Below are positions 2,648 to 57,721 of a stretch of DNA of 64,000 nucleotides, in pieces (position 1 is the stretch's first letter; every line of letters begins with the position of its first letter). The stretch comes from Xanthobacteraceae bacterium (lineage in GTDB: Bacteria; Pseudomonadota; Alphaproteobacteria; Rhizobiales; Xanthobacteraceae): NCBI GenBank assembly GCA_023954195.1, contig JAMLIK010000002.1:62001-126000 (forward strand), in the 5' to 3' direction. The position numbers and the translations under genes were made by a program. Under the pieces are notes generated by a model, which did no database searches, was not told where the DNA came from, and saw only the letters and a program-made list of their open reading frames with translations.

Positions 2648-3508
2648 ATGAATTATCGCCACGCCTTTCATGCCGGCAATTTCGCCGATGTCGTCAAGCA
2701 TCTCGTGCTGGTGCGCATCCTGACCTATCTGCACGACAAGCCGGCGGCGTTCCGCGTCATCGACAGCCACGCCGGCGCCGGCCGCTACGATCTCGCCGGC
2801 AGCGAGGCCACGCGCGGCGGCGAATGGCTCACCGGCATCGCGCGGGTGATGGCGGCGCGCTTTTCGCCGGAGGCGGGCGCGCTGATCGCGCCCTATCTCG
2901 ATATCGTGCGCGCCTTCAATCCGCCGGGCAAGCTGGAGGTTTATCCCGGCTCGCCCCTGATCGCGCGCGCCCTGCTGCGGCCGCAGGACCGGATGACGGC
3001 GTGCGAACTCGCGGACGGGCCGCGCAAGGCGTTGATCGACGCGCTGCGCCGCGACGAACAGGCGCGGGTGGTCGATCTCGACGGCTGGACCGCGCTGCCG
3101 GCGTTCGTGCCGCCGAACGAGCGGCGCGGGCTGGTGCTGATCGATCCGCCGTTCGAGCAGCCGGACGAATTCGAGCGGCTGGCGGCGGTGTTCGCGGAAA
3201 CCTTCGCGAAATGGCCGACCGGCATCTATGTGCTGTGGTATCCGGTGAAAAGCCGCCGCGCCACCGATACGCTGGCGCGGCAGGTGGCGGCGGTCACGGC
3301 CGCGCAGGGCGCGGCCGACAAGTGCCTGCGGCTGGAATTCAGCGTGGCGCCGGCGGCCGAGGGGCAGGGGCTCGTGTCCTGCGGTCTTTTGATCGTCAAC
3401 CCGCCGTGGACGCTCGCCGCCGAACTCAGGACGATCCTGCCGGAATTGCAGAAGCCGCTCGGGCGCGGCGGCGCGGGGCGTTTCCGGCTGGAGGTCGCGA
3501 AGCCGTGA
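2648..3508 (+). CDS. rlmJ: 23S rRNA (adenine(2030)-N6)-methyltransferase RlmJ
   Basis: A 286-residue protein opening MNYRHAFHAGNFADVVKH, the diagnostic start of RlmJ (formerly ComJ/YhiR). It methylates N6 of A2030 in 23S rRNA using S-adenosylmethionine. The SAM-binding region (VIDSHAGAGRYDL) lies near residues 37-50 and the catalytic DPPF motif near residue 165. Length agrees with the family (about 280). It is transcribed away from the SbcD-like gene, with 84 bp between them, and seems to be a single-gene unit. Confidence 0.95.
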   Translation: MNYRHAFHAGNFADVVKHLVLVRILTYLHDKPAAFRVIDSHAGAGRYDLAGSEATRGGEWLTGIARVMAARFSPEAGALIAPYLDIVRAFNPPGKLEVYPGSPLIARALLRPQDRMTACELADGPRKALIDALRRDEQARVVDLDGWTALPAFVPPNERRGLVLIDPPFEQPDEFERLAAVFAETFAKWPTGIYVLWYPVKSRRATDTLARQVAAVTAAQGAADKCLRLEFSVAPAAEGQGLVSCGLLIVNPPWTLAAELRTILPELQKPLGRGGAGRFRLEVAKP

Positions 3509-3512
3509 ACGC

Positions 3513-3542
3513 AAAAAAATCCCGGCCGCGTCGTGGCCGGGA
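3513..3542 (-). terminator. Rho-independent terminator of the outer-membrane protein gene
   Basis: An 8-bp stem (TCCCGGCC with GGCCGGGA, loop of 7) at 3520-3542 is followed on the minus strand by seven T (A tract 3513-3519 on plus). It lies 30-59 bases past the stop of the minus-strand porin-like gene, between converging genes. Confidence 0.8.
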
Positions 3543-3571
3543 GATGGTCGATCGAAGTCTTCTTGCTTTGG

Positions 3572-4225
3572 TCAGAAACGGTAATTGACGCCGACGCGCA
3601 CCAGGCTGGACGAATAGGCGTTGGGCATGCCGGTGATGCCGAAACGGCTGTTCGACAGGTCCATGTAGAGATATTCGATCTTGGCGCTGATGTTCTGGGT
3701 CAGGCCGACCTCGGCCCCCACGCCGATGGTCCAGCCGGCCGTGGTGTGGCTTTCGCGCTGCATCGCCGTTTCGCCGCGCAGGGTGCCGAAGGCGAGGCCG
3801 CCGGTGCCGTAGATCAGGACGTTGTCCATGGCGTAGCCGACGCGGCCGCGCATGGTGCCGAACCACGGATTGCTGAATTTCCAGCCGGCGAAGCGGTTGT
3901 CGGCGCCGTTGAGTTGCAGGTCGGCTTCGAGGCCGATCACCAGCGGGCCGGATTGCACGTTGTAGCCGACCTGGACGCCGCCCGCGAACCCCGACGGATG
4001 GGTCGGATTGTTGGAGACCGAGCCCCAGTTGTAGCCGATATTGCCGCCGAGATAGGGCCCGGCCCAGCTATAGGCGTTGAGCGGCTGATTGACCGTGTAG
4101 GGTCCGCGCGCGCCATACGACCAGTCCGCGGCCTGCGCCGGCGCGGCCAGGACAGCGGCCGAGACACCGGCCAAGGCAAGCGCCGCGACCGTGATGGCGG
4201 TGATTGTCGATGGTGTCCTGGACAT
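3572..4225 (-). CDS. Outer-membrane beta-barrel protein (Omp25/Omp31 type)
   Basis: A 217-residue secreted protein. The N-terminus carries a signal peptide ending near APAQAAD (residues about 28-34). The mature part begins WAGPYLGGNIGYNWG and has alternating polar/aromatic strands, and the protein ends in the C-terminal aromatic VGVNYRF expected of BAM-inserted barrels. This is the layout of the OmpA-like 8-stranded Omp25/Omp31 family common in Rhizobiales. A strong terminator follows. Its upstream region, shared with uvrC, carries two CtrA-type boxes at 4310-4366. The exact function is unknown; structural porin or envelope-stability roles are typical. Confidence 0.85.
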   Translation of the reverse strand: MSRTPSTITAITVAALALAGVSAAVLAAPAQAADWSYGARGPYTVNQPLNAYSWAGPYLGGNIGYNWGSVSNNPTHPSGFAGGVQVGYNVQSGPLVIGLEADLQLNGADNRFAGWKFSNPWFGTMRGRVGYAMDNVLIYGTGGLAFGTLRGETAMQRESHTTAGWTIGVGAEVGLTQNISAKIEYLYMDLSNSRFGITGMPNAYSSSLVRVGVNYRF

Positions 4226-9150: not shown

Positions 9151-9195
9151 GTCGCGCCAATAAGATGTATTGACAATACATCTTATTGGCGCGAC
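9151..9195. promoter_or_regulatory. Perfect 45-bp palindrome, probable NsrR-type operator
   Basis: Two 22-base arms around one central A match perfectly. The core half-site AAGATGTATTG and its inverse (9162-9184) closely resemble the published NsrR consensus (AAGATGYATTT in inverted repeat), bound by an Rrf2-family NO sensor. It starts 49 bases past prmB and ends 93 bases before the DUF2249 gene. It covers a perfect -35 hexamer, so repression by occlusion is expected. The identity of the regulator is inference; its gene is not in this window. Confidence 0.7.
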
Positions 9196-9198
9196 TAT
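9170..9198 (+). promoter_or_regulatory. Sigma-70-type promoter of the DUF2249/NnrS-like cassette
   Basis: TTGACA at 9170-9175 is a perfect -35 element, with a 17-base spacer before a weak -10, GACTAT at 9193-9198. The -35 spans the exact centre of the 45-bp palindrome. Confidence 0.5.
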
Positions 9199-9288: not shown

Positions 9289-9549
9289 ATGTGTCAGACT
9301 ACTGAAGAAGCCGCCGCCCCCGAAGTCGATGTGCGCAGCCTGATTCCGGCGCAGCGCCACGCCAAGATTTTCCAGCTTGTCGGTGAACTGGCGGCGGGCG
9401 ATTCGTTCGTTCTGGTGAACGATCACGATCCCAAGCCGCTTTATTATCAACTGCAAGCCGAGCATCCGAACGAGTTCTCGTGGACTTATCTGGAGAAGGG
9501 GCCGGCGGTCTGGAAAGTCGAGATCGGCAAGCAGTTCAAGGCCGCGTGA
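9289..9549 (+). CDS. DUF2249 protein
   Basis: An 86-residue soluble protein. The DUF2249 domain covers about residues 13-84 (VDVRSLIPAQRHAKIFQLVGEL, FVLVNDHDPKPLYYQL and the closing WTYLEKGPAVWKVEIGK). Biochemical function is unknown, but the family recurs beside NO-reductase, NnrS, Hcp and Fe-S repair genes and is often under NsrR or NnrR control. AAGGAG at 9278-9283 is a good ribosome site for ATG 9289. It is the first gene behind the NsrR-like palindrome. A short MCQTTEE leader contains the only Cys. Confidence 0.85.
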   Translation: MCQTTEEAAAPEVDVRSLIPAQRHAKIFQLVGELAAGDSFVLVNDHDPKPLYYQLQAEHPNEFSWTYLEKGPAVWKVEIGKQFKAA

Positions 9550-9694
9550 TCCGTTCTGACCGGCGCGCGCGTCCGCGCCGCGCCGGTGATCGCGCTGTCG
9601 TCGGCAATCCCGCCCATCGCAGGGGGCGGTTTGCTGATCGCGCCGGCGGCTTGATGCCGTCGGCGTGCTTTTTCAATTCAAAAGGAATGTCGCC

Positions 9695-11050
9695 GTGGTC
9701 GGCGTCGCTTTATCCCGCTGGACAATGTCCTACTTCGCCGCCGCCGTGATGGCGCTGATCGCCGCCGAGGCGGTGATGCTGGCGGGCATCGGTTATCCGC
9801 AGGCGCCGATCGCCGCGCCGGAGTCGCTGCTGTTGGTTCACCTGGTCGCGATCGGCTGGCTCAGCCTCCTGATGTGCGGCGCTCTGTTTCAGTTCGTCCC
9901 GGTATTGGTGGTCCGCCCGCTCCACAGCGACACGTTGCCGCTGCCGACGCTGGGCCTGCTGGTCGCGGGTCTTGCCGCGCTGCTGCTCGGCTTCGCGCAG
10001 CTTGGCGGCATCGTCCAAACGCCGTTCGCGTTTCTGCCCGCCGCCGCCATCCTGCTTGGCGCGGGCTTCACGCTGGTATTGTGGAATCTCGGCCGCACGC
10101 TATGGGCGGCGCGACCCTTGCCGCTGCCCGCGCGCTTCGTGGTCGGCGGGCTGTGCAGCCTCGCGGCGACGGTGCTGTTCGGCGTCATCTTCGCGCTGGT
10201 GCTGGGCGGTGTCGCCACGGTGCCGCATCTGGTCGATGTCGCAACGTTCGGTCTGCCAATTCACGTCATCGCCGGGCTCGGCGGCTGGCTCACCTTCACC
10301 GCGATCGGCGTCAGCTATCGGCTGCTGGCGATGTTCATGCTGGCTCCGGAGCTTGAGGGCCGCACCACGCGCGGCGCGCTTTATCTGGGCGCGGCGGCGC
10401 TTGCCGCCGTCATCGTCGGGGGCGCCGCGGCGATTTGCCTGGCCGGCAACGTGATGACGGCCGTCGCGATCGGCGGCCTGCTCGGCGTCGCCTGCCTCGT
10501 GCTCTACGGCCGCGATATCGTGCATCTGTATCGCGCGCGAAAACGCCGCGTCGTCGAACTCAACAGCCGCATGGCGGCGGTGGCGCTGGCCAATCTGGCC
10601 GCGACCGTGGCGCTCGGCATCGTTCTCATGGCCGCCGGCCGCTTCACCGATCACGTTGGCGTGGTGGTGTTTCTGGTCGGCTTCGCGTGGCTGACGGGTT
10701 TCGGCCTCGCAAAACTCTACAAGATCGTCGCCTTTCTGACGTGGCTCGAATGCTACGGTCCGGTTCTGGGCAAGACGGCGACGCCGCGCGTGCAGGATCT
10801 CGTGACCGAATCGCGCGCGCAAAAATGGTTCGTGCTGTATTTCGTCGCGGTGTGGATTGCGGCCGCCGCGCTGCTGCTGGCGCAGCCGTGGCTGTTTCGC
10901 TCCGCAGCCGGCGCGATGCTGTTCGCGACCGTCAGCATCGGCGTCGAATTGATGCGCACCCGCCGCCTCGCCAACGTCGCGCCGAATCTGCGCCTGCCGA
11001 AAGGGGTCCGGCCGCCACATCTGCTGCATTCGTCGGTTCAGCTAGGTTGA
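9695..11050 (+). CDS. NnrS/heme-copper-oxidase-I-like polytopic membrane protein
   Basis: About 451 residues, nearly all hydrophobic, with about twelve transmembrane helices. Conserved-looking His positions fall in LLLVHLVAIGWLS and GLPIHVIAGLGGWLTFTAIGVSYRLL. These resemble heme-ligand helices in the NnrS/cytochrome-oxidase-subunit-I-like proteins encoded beside DUF2249 genes. The dense CuB His cluster of true oxidases is not apparent, so a catalytic oxidase is unlikely. I chose GTG 9695 because AAAGGA at 9681-9686 is well spaced; GTG 9665 and ATG 9725 are in-frame alternatives. A role in NO or respiratory-heme protection is inferred from family and context. Confidence 0.65.
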   Translation: MVGVALSRWTMSYFAAAVMALIAAEAVMLAGIGYPQAPIAAPESLLLVHLVAIGWLSLLMCGALFQFVPVLVVRPLHSDTLPLPTLGLLVAGLAALLLGFAQLGGIVQTPFAFLPAAAILLGAGFTLVLWNLGRTLWAARPLPLPARFVVGGLCSLAATVLFGVIFALVLGGVATVPHLVDVATFGLPIHVIAGLGGWLTFTAIGVSYRLLAMFMLAPELEGRTTRGALYLGAAALAAVIVGGAAAICLAGNVMTAVAIGGLLGVACLVLYGRDIVHLYRARKRRVVELNSRMAAVALANLAATVALGIVLMAAGRFTDHVGVVVFLVGFAWLTGFGLAKLYKIVAFLTWLECYGPVLGKTATPRVQDLVTESRAQKWFVLYFVAVWIAAAALLLAQPWLFRSAAGAMLFATVSIGVELMRTRRLANVAPNLRLPKGVRPPHLLHSSVQLG

Positions 11051-11061
11051 AGGAGACCAGC

Positions 11062-11598
11062 ATGACAACGCAATTCATCGACGTCGATGTCCGCCCCATC
11101 CTGCGCGCCGGCGGCGAGCCGTTCGGCGCGATCATGGCGGCGGTGACCAAGCTGCAACCCGGCGAGGGGCTGCGGCTGCTGGCGACCTTCAAGCCGGTGC
11201 CGCTGTTCCAGGTGCTGGGCGCGCGGGGATTCAGCCACGAGGCGCGGGAGATCGGCGGCGGCGATTGGGAGGTGCTGTTCTCGCCGGGCGCGGCCGCCGC
11301 CGCGCCTGCGCCCGCCGCCGCGCCGGCCACGCCGGCGGCGAGCGACGATGCGTGGCCGCAGCCCGCGCAGGAAATGGACAACCGCGATCTTGAGCCGCCG
11401 GAGCCGATGGTGCGCATTCTCGCCGCGACCGAAACCATGGCGAAGGGCGCGGTGCTGTCGGCGCTGCTTTGCCGCGAGCCGATGTTCCTGCTGCCCGAAT
11501 TGGCCAAGCGCGGCCACGCCTGGCGCGGCGGTTTCGAGCCCGACGGCACGACCTACAAGATCCTCATTCGCGTCGGAGCCGCGAAGGAGGCCGCATGA
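11062..11598 (+). CDS. Tandem DUF2249 protein
   Basis: A 178-residue protein with two DUF2249-like domains, about residues 6-75 (VDVRPILRAGGEPFGAIM ... GDWEVLFSPG) and 103-174 (NRDLEPPEPMVRILAATE ... TTYKILIRVG). An Ala/Pro linker of about 35 residues separates them. The second copy has diverged strongly at its start. GAAGGAG at 11049-11055 overlaps the end of the membrane-protein gene and serves ATG 11062. The stop overlaps the DUF59 start (ATGA). Function is unknown; the duplicated fold beside an Fe-S assembly protein suggests a metal or redox role. Confidence 0.8.
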   Translation: MTTQFIDVDVRPILRAGGEPFGAIMAAVTKLQPGEGLRLLATFKPVPLFQVLGARGFSHEAREIGGGDWEVLFSPGAAAAAPAPAAAPATPAASDDAWPQPAQEMDNRDLEPPEPMVRILAATETMAKGAVLSALLCREPMFLLPELAKRGHAWRGGFEPDGTTYKILIRVGAAKEAA

Positions 11599-11915
11599 CG
11601 CCGCAAGCCAATGAAGCCTTCGTCGAGCGGATCAGGGAGGCCCTGCGTCTCGTGATCGATCCCGAGCTTGGCTACAACATCGTCGATCTCGGGCTGGTTT
11701 ACGACATCGAGGTCGAGGACGGCGGCGTGGTGCGGGTGGCGATGACGACGACGACGCGCGGCTGCCCGGCGACCGGCTATCTCAAGGACGGCGCGCGCGA
11801 TGCGGCGTGGAGCGTGCCGACGGTCGAGTTCGTCGATATCGCGCTGACCTACGACCCGCCATGGACGCCGGACATGATGACCGAGGATGCCAAGCGGCAT
11901 CTCGGGATCATGTGA
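11595..11915 (+). CDS. MIP18/DUF59 (PaaD/SufT-like) Fe-S assembly protein
   Basis: A 106-residue single-domain protein with the family signature DPELGYNIVDLGLVY (about residues 23-37) and the conserved Cys in TTTRGCPATGYL. MIP18/SufT/PaaD proteins help mature Fe-S clusters, and PaaD assists the phenylacetyl-CoA epoxidase reductase. No paa or suf genes are nearby, so here it most likely belongs to the DUF2249 cassette. It overlaps the preceding gene by 4 bases and the next by 1 (TGATG). Confidence 0.88.
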   Translation: MTPQANEAFVERIREALRLVIDPELGYNIVDLGLVYDIEVEDGGVVRVAMTTTTRGCPATGYLKDGARDAAWSVPTVEFVDIALTYDPPWTPDMMTEDAKRHLGIM

Positions 11916-12188: not shown

Positions 12189-12503
12189 ATGTCGACGATT
12201 CCTTCCGAAATGCCGCCCGGCTTTGTCGCCTACGGACGCTCGCCGGATTTCCATTCCGACAACCTGCCCGCCAAGCTGCAATCGGCGCACAGCACCAAGG
12301 CCGGGACATGGGGCCTGCTGCACGTGCTCGACGGCGTCGTCCGGTTCCGGCTGGAAGCTCCGCATCAGGGCGAGAAGATCGTGCGCGCCGGCGAAACCGT
12401 CGTGATCGAATCGCAGGTGCCGCACCGGGTCGTCTTCCTCGAACCGGGCCGCATGTTCGTCGCGTTCTACCGGCAGGCGGAGGCGGGCGTCTCCGCGACG
12501 TGA
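12189..12503 (+). CDS. DUF1971 (TehB-like cupin) protein
   Basis: A 104-residue cupin with STKAGTWGLLHVLDGVVRFRL, a GETVVIESQVPHRVVFLEPGRMFVAFYR core and a single conserved His in VPHRV. This is the DUF1971 domain, found alone or fused to TehB-type tellurite-resistance methyltransferases, and often seen near nitrogen-oxide stress genes. It is 61 bp beyond the 70-residue gene with no terminator, so it probably ends the same transcript. Substrate unknown. Confidence 0.8.
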   Translation: MSTIPSEMPPGFVAYGRSPDFHSDNLPAKLQSAHSTKAGTWGLLHVLDGVVRFRLEAPHQGEKIVRAGETVVIESQVPHRVVFLEPGRMFVAFYRQAEAGVSAT

Positions 12504-56340: not shown

Positions 56341-56376
56341 AACAAAAACGCGGGCCGTACGGCCCGCGTTTTTGTT
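56341..56376. terminator. Bidirectional terminator (perfect 36-bp palindrome)
   Basis: AACAAAAACGCGGGCCGT followed by its exact reverse complement, T-rich on both strands. It serves the unknown gene (plus) and rpsU (minus). Confidence 0.9.
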
Positions 56377-57691: not shown

Positions 57692-57721
57692 AAAAGGACC
57701 ATGGCGCGCCATGGTCCTTTT
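57692..57721. terminator. Bidirectional terminator between aqpZ and purK
   Basis: Perfect palindrome AAAAGGACCATGGCG plus its complement, followed by TTGTTT on plus. Lies between converging genes. Confidence 0.85.

Follow-up and report, generated by a model that had tools for sequence, protein, structure and literature searches.

This locus raises two linked questions, namely, what kind of element the palindrome at positions 9151 to 9195 is and why its symmetry reaches as far as it does. In the window, i.e., the whole 64-kb stretch of DNA that was analysed, the two 22-nt arms of this 45-bp element (9151 to 9172 and 9174 to 9195) are 100% complementary around a single A at position 9173, exactly as the preliminary description of this DNA had it. 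The next longest arms among palindromes with zero or one central base measure 18 and 15 nt, and first-order Markov simulation of the window (10 copies) gave arms of up to 11 nt; the 22-1-22 symmetry is far beyond chance. The two shorter perfect palindromes, at 56341 to 56376 and 57692 to 57721 (18- and 15-nt arms, respectively), have T-rich right ends and, read by eye, look like bidirectional terminators. The 45-bp element, its box, and its outer arms carry no strand assignment. It comprises an inner 23-bp box, AAGATGTATTGACAATACATCTT (9162 to 9184), flanked by a left outer arm, GTCGCGCCAAT (9151 to 9161), and a right outer arm, ATTGGCGCGAC (9185 to 9195), so that the symmetry continues for 11 bases on each side of the box and not for the ten originally counted.

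The inner box is an 11-1-11 inverted repeat of the AAGATGYATT type. The same architecture is seen in the NsrR box of Escherichia coli ytfE, and 19 of the 23 letters are equal (four differ, counted by eye) when the comparison is made with the box as printed in PMC5320621. The centres are not the same, TTGACAA here versus TTTAAAA in E. coli, and a full -35 element is thus built into the box studied here; also unlike the E. coli operator, its symmetry extends 11 bp on each side, and NsrR was not found in the genome (see below). With up to three mismatches allowed, the core matches only once in the 4.18-Mb genome.

Relatives carry this box at the same place. The first gene after it encodes a DUF2249 protein, a match to which was detected in 17 of 61 genomes (this one and 60 relatives). 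All six congeners that keep a close orthologue of the gene (G002 to G007, 83 to 90% identity) have the box just upstream of it, as does G014, which belongs to another genus and has an orthologue at 77%. When eight of the promoters are aligned, hardly any position of the core varies, which is not true of the flanks; the left outer arm is not conserved. The seventh congener, G001, lacks any DUF2249 match, and its sole site has three mismatches. This weak box (L065, 1501 to 1523) is situated just upstream of a DUF1971-like gene, by eye the counterpart of the gene at 12189 to 12503 in the window. With no more than two mismatches, the core turns up in 25 of the 391 genomes of the family, compared to none for a reversed-pattern control. 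Most congeners have one box, and two or three are present in some relatives (G014 [L068, L070, and L071], G005, G067, G069, G112, G161, and G175), where the regulon is thus larger than in most congeners. A scan of public-genome contigs with the core returned 14 stretches, five of them from the congeners G002, G003, G004, G006, and G007. The other nine were examined as eight-kb loci: five contain an nsrR-like gene, including an Acinetobacter locus in which the site precedes a flavohemoglobin-like gene (named by eye); two more contain only the DUF2249 four-gene operon; and the remaining two (L085, from a Clostridia MAG, and L091, from Marinicaulis) contain none of the five proteins sought, i.e., neither an nsrR-like gene nor the DUF2249 operon.

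A promoter is embedded in the box. TTGACA occupies positions 9170 to 9175 of the + strand, within 9162 to 9184, bearing out the proposal that the palindrome sits over a -35 element. The centre of this hexamer is half a base off the symmetry axis. At 17-nt spacing it is followed on the same strand by the -10-like hexamer GACTAT (9193 to 9198), into which the right outer arm runs. The pattern was examined in 27 promoters, defined as boxes with a DUF2249 relative starting no more than 1.2 kb downstream, several of which are close relatives of one another: TTGACA is exact on the gene strand inside the box in 21, and a -10 pattern (A at position 2, T at position 6) is found at 17-nt spacing in 20, versus 0, 2, 3, and 0 at 15, 16, 18, and 19 nt. 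Six of the 27 have no exact TTGACA and seven have no -10 pattern. GACTAT itself is a weak -10, matching only three of the six consensus letters by our own count, which explains why a simple promoter scanner reported no promoter in the window. By its position over the -35 element, the box is placed to block RNA polymerase, and a repressor bound to it would cover that element.

The downstream genes all lie on the + strand. The first, at 9289 to 9549, encodes the 86-aa DUF2249 protein (PF10006, E = 2.2e-29). The second, at 9665 to 11050 (start codon not settled), encodes a 461-aa membrane protein with a heme-copper-oxidase fold which gave no Pfam or NCBIfam match; it is closest to cbb3 oxidase and NO reductase chains, and only two histidines are invariant across 18 homologues. 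Next come a protein with two DUF2249 stretches (11062 to 11598), the second of which also weakly matches TusA, and a FeS_assembly_P (SufT/PaaD-like) protein (11595 to 11915; PF01883, E = 7.1e-19, with all NCBIfam matches below cut-off). Together these four genes make up the predicted DUF2249/heme-copper-fold/DUF2249/FeS-assembly-domain operon. A DUF1971 cupin-like gene further on (12189 to 12503, PF09313) is a candidate member only.

In the congeners, the expected regulator is at hand. Their NsrR protein matches PF02082 at 4.3e-39; among NCBIfam models the best is NsrR, below its cut-off and with RirA almost level, and the Rrf2 superfamily model is the only one whose cut-off is reached. Among solved structures, the closest in sequence is NsrR 5n07 (E = 7.9e-20), in which three cysteines align with those of the congener protein. 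The gene is present in 7/7 congeners, each time between a truncated-globin-like gene and a PAS gene (both named by eye). At the family level, an Rrf2 protein over the Pfam cut-off was found in 24 of the 25 genomes bearing the box at up to two mismatches (7 in a first search and 17 of 17 in a second). The loci checked as NsrR-like are those beside globin and PAS in the congeners, and the 17 genomes count as having an Rrf2 over cut-off. Four of the 24 (G014, G084, G161, and G207) have an Rrf2 gene no more than 0.5 kb from the box. The designation of the core as NsrR-type is supported, the same box being found at the same promoter in relatives with NsrR or another Rrf2 protein and, in some, right beside the Rrf2 gene.

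The sole exception among the 25 is the genome studied here, whereas all 24 others have the protein. Searching the genome for an Rrf2/NsrR gene had been suggested from the outset, and the PF02082 model gave no match in it; controls were positive in 13 of 14 genomes, and 58 of the 61 genomes of the set contain the domain. A tblastn search with the congener NsrR returned a single match (best E = 0.17). This assembly, then, presents the very circumstance that the preliminary description had named as counting against its reading, a genome with no NsrR/Rrf2 protein. The absence makes a working NsrR circuit in this genome less likely but leaves the identity of the box by descent untouched. The inner 23 bp is, as its sequence and distribution indicate, an NsrR operator by descent; because a cognate NsrR, present in 7/7 congeners, was not found in the same genome, we file it as such and not as a working NsrR operator.

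The surroundings expected for the gene bear marks of change. A DNA search with the congener locus recovered the PAS part at 86% identity, the nsrR and globin parts giving only short noise; a globin search of this genome, run without a positive control, found nothing. The PAS gene lies 40 kb inside a 367-kb contig, next to other neighbours and without nsrR, so the locus has been rearranged, and a contig that simply stops short of nsrR does not account for its absence. In four congeners compared, PAS adjoins nsrR, and 4.7 to 7.5 kb lie between PAS and a DUF488-like gene (named by eye); here 80 bp separate the DUF488-like gene from PAS (L099, 5489 to 6414, contig C5), a spacing that we read as a trace of the rearrangement which accompanied the loss of nsrR. 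A tblastx comparison of the 2.6 kb beyond PAS with the nsrR regions of four congeners gave no match, and a tRNA scan of the rearranged locus detected none. In G003 and G001 a cytochrome-oxidase-subunit-I gene comes after PAS, and two oxidase-subunit matches were found on other contigs of this genome. On contig C1 (L073), about 1.1 kb past one oxidase-subunit-I gene, whose homologue neighbours PAS in congeners, is a transposase-like frame (identified by eye; 3399 to 3770), which may have brought about the rearrangement. For the membrane-protein gene, nucleotide trees place this genome as sister to G002, G003, G004, and G006, with G005 and G007 outside, and by this position among the congeners the loss of nsrR is derived. 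Third codon positions give this genome a long terminal branch (about 0.46), and its core is nonetheless the same as that of G006. An unchanged core on so long a branch means that the loss is recent, that something still maintains the site, or that nsrR was left unassembled.

As to the outer symmetry, 45 distinct boxes were listed and one overlapping second site in L095 was dropped. Perfect outer runs of at least 7 bp occur in 5 of the remaining 44 boxes, versus 0.23 in shuffles that ignore the relatedness of the boxes (0/5000), and 39 have no such run. The five runs measure 11 bp here, 10 bp in L089, and 7 bp each in G007, L102 (G278), and L113 (G112), and their letters differ, but CCTTAA is common to L089 and L102. 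Pairing over positions 4 to 12 is near expectation (126 versus 116; 696/5000 shuffles). Where the three inner flank positions are matched, 5 of 15 boxes extend for four more, compared to 0.18 expected (0/20000); the figures are 4 of 11 versus 0.21 (0/20000) for whole-genome loci only (34 boxes), and the 36 boxes at no more than two mismatches show the same excess (5 versus 0.22). If the inner three positions are not conditioned on, runs of four at positions 4 to 7 are found in 5/44 boxes versus 0.68 (6/20000) and in 4/34 versus 0.71 (84/20000). A few long perfect runs beyond chance, with the rest near chance, are to be expected if one arm is sporadically re-copied from its partner, i.e., from quasi-palindrome correction. 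Compared with G006, the right outer arm is similar (9 of 12 letters) and the left is not (4 of 12; both our own counts), suggesting that the outer symmetry was copied from right to left, with the reservation that left flanks are poorly conserved throughout. The left outer arm (9151 to 9161) was thus likely copied from the right one by template switching, a process that makes quasi-palindromes perfect in E. coli (PMC7202029) and that has been proposed for RNA hairpins (PMC8794818).

Other explanations have to be weighed against these data. The NsrR circuit could be intact, with nsrR present in the organism and missing from the assembly because of a gap or an unassembled plasmid. This would agree with the perfectly kept core, with the Rrf2 proteins of nearly all box-bearing family genomes, and with an assembly in 7 contigs; we hold it to be unlikely, as the completeness of that assembly is 99.39% and the PAS gene, whose neighbourhood houses nsrR in 7/7 congeners, is well inside its contig with nsrR absent there. 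The loss of nsrR being granted, the palindrome might have been kept, even lengthened, afterwards, either through template switching that re-copies the free half from the promoter-constrained half or through adoption of the site by a non-Rrf2 regulator, a sequel that strikes us as rather unlikely.

Selection on the entire 45 bp as a wide operator, its outer symmetry kept by two co-operating dimers or by an adopted non-Rrf2 regulator, is quite improbable. The perfect 22-bp arms and a core unchanged in a genome where Rrf2 was not found are in its favour, and 14 Crp/Fnr-type HTH matches were obtained in the genome at E ≤ 0.001, none of them linked to the site. Yet a conserved wider operator should show shared outer letters, and the outer arms are missing at most boxes, differ among the few that have them, and lie in positions whose pairing stays close to expectation. 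The earlier suggestion that two dimers or a second protein account for the wider symmetry is, as a conserved site, not supported. It is highly improbable that the palindrome serves the upstream methyltransferase gene as a hairpin terminator or an RNA element: although it begins 50 nt past the stop codon of that gene and its RNA folds well (-37.8 kcal/mol, z = -8.4), the T run is absent, and what relatives conserve is the core with its built-in promoter, the upstream genes differing. A terminator scan yielded no terminator-like site at 9151 to 9195, and this reading was rejected.

An orphaned NsrR operator by descent and an outer symmetry made by template switching, taken together as one joint reading, constitute the explanation that we consider probable. 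From known NsrR biology, a dimer of the Fe-S protein NsrR would sit on the box in the relatives and block RNA polymerase until NO attacks its cluster and NsrR lets go. Repression by NsrR on this box is not certain, because one alpha-proteobacterial NsrR has been reported to activate promoters with its site over the -35 region (PMC11014258). In this genome, nsrR and the neighbouring globin gene would have been lost together with the rearrangement of their locus. This would leave the operator orphaned and the operon probably expressed free of NsrR control. On each side, the additional 11 bp would then come from replication template switching at an existing palindrome and not from a wider binding site.

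The box shares its sequence, promoter spacing, and first gene with alpha-proteobacterial NsrR boxes (Xanthobacteraceae/Hyphomicrobiales MAGs and others). As for the template-switch products, PMC7202029 describes imperfect inverted repeats whose symmetry is improved or completed, whereas the case made here is built on operator flanks compared between species and not on observed mutants or on an imperfect precursor seen in the same species. Literature searches for NsrR palindromes in alphaproteobacteria with nitric oxide, for NsrR together with DUF2249, and for quasi-palindromes at bacterial operators or in transcription factor binding found no paper, and titles and abstract beginnings on regulator loss held nothing on point.

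If the operator is indeed orphaned, the locus is a naturally occurring example of an operator that has stayed whole after the disappearance of its repressor, and it opens the questions of how fast operators decay and whether a palindrome can maintain itself. Preservation of operator symmetry by a mutational mechanism, with no binding protein involved, would, to our knowledge, be new to regulatory evolution. The example is also a caution that extra protein contacts need not lie behind a long perfect operator symmetry. For the alpha-proteobacteria, the conserved box ties a poorly known DUF2249/heme-copper-fold/FeS-assembly operon, as predicted here, to the NO-responsive NsrR regulon.
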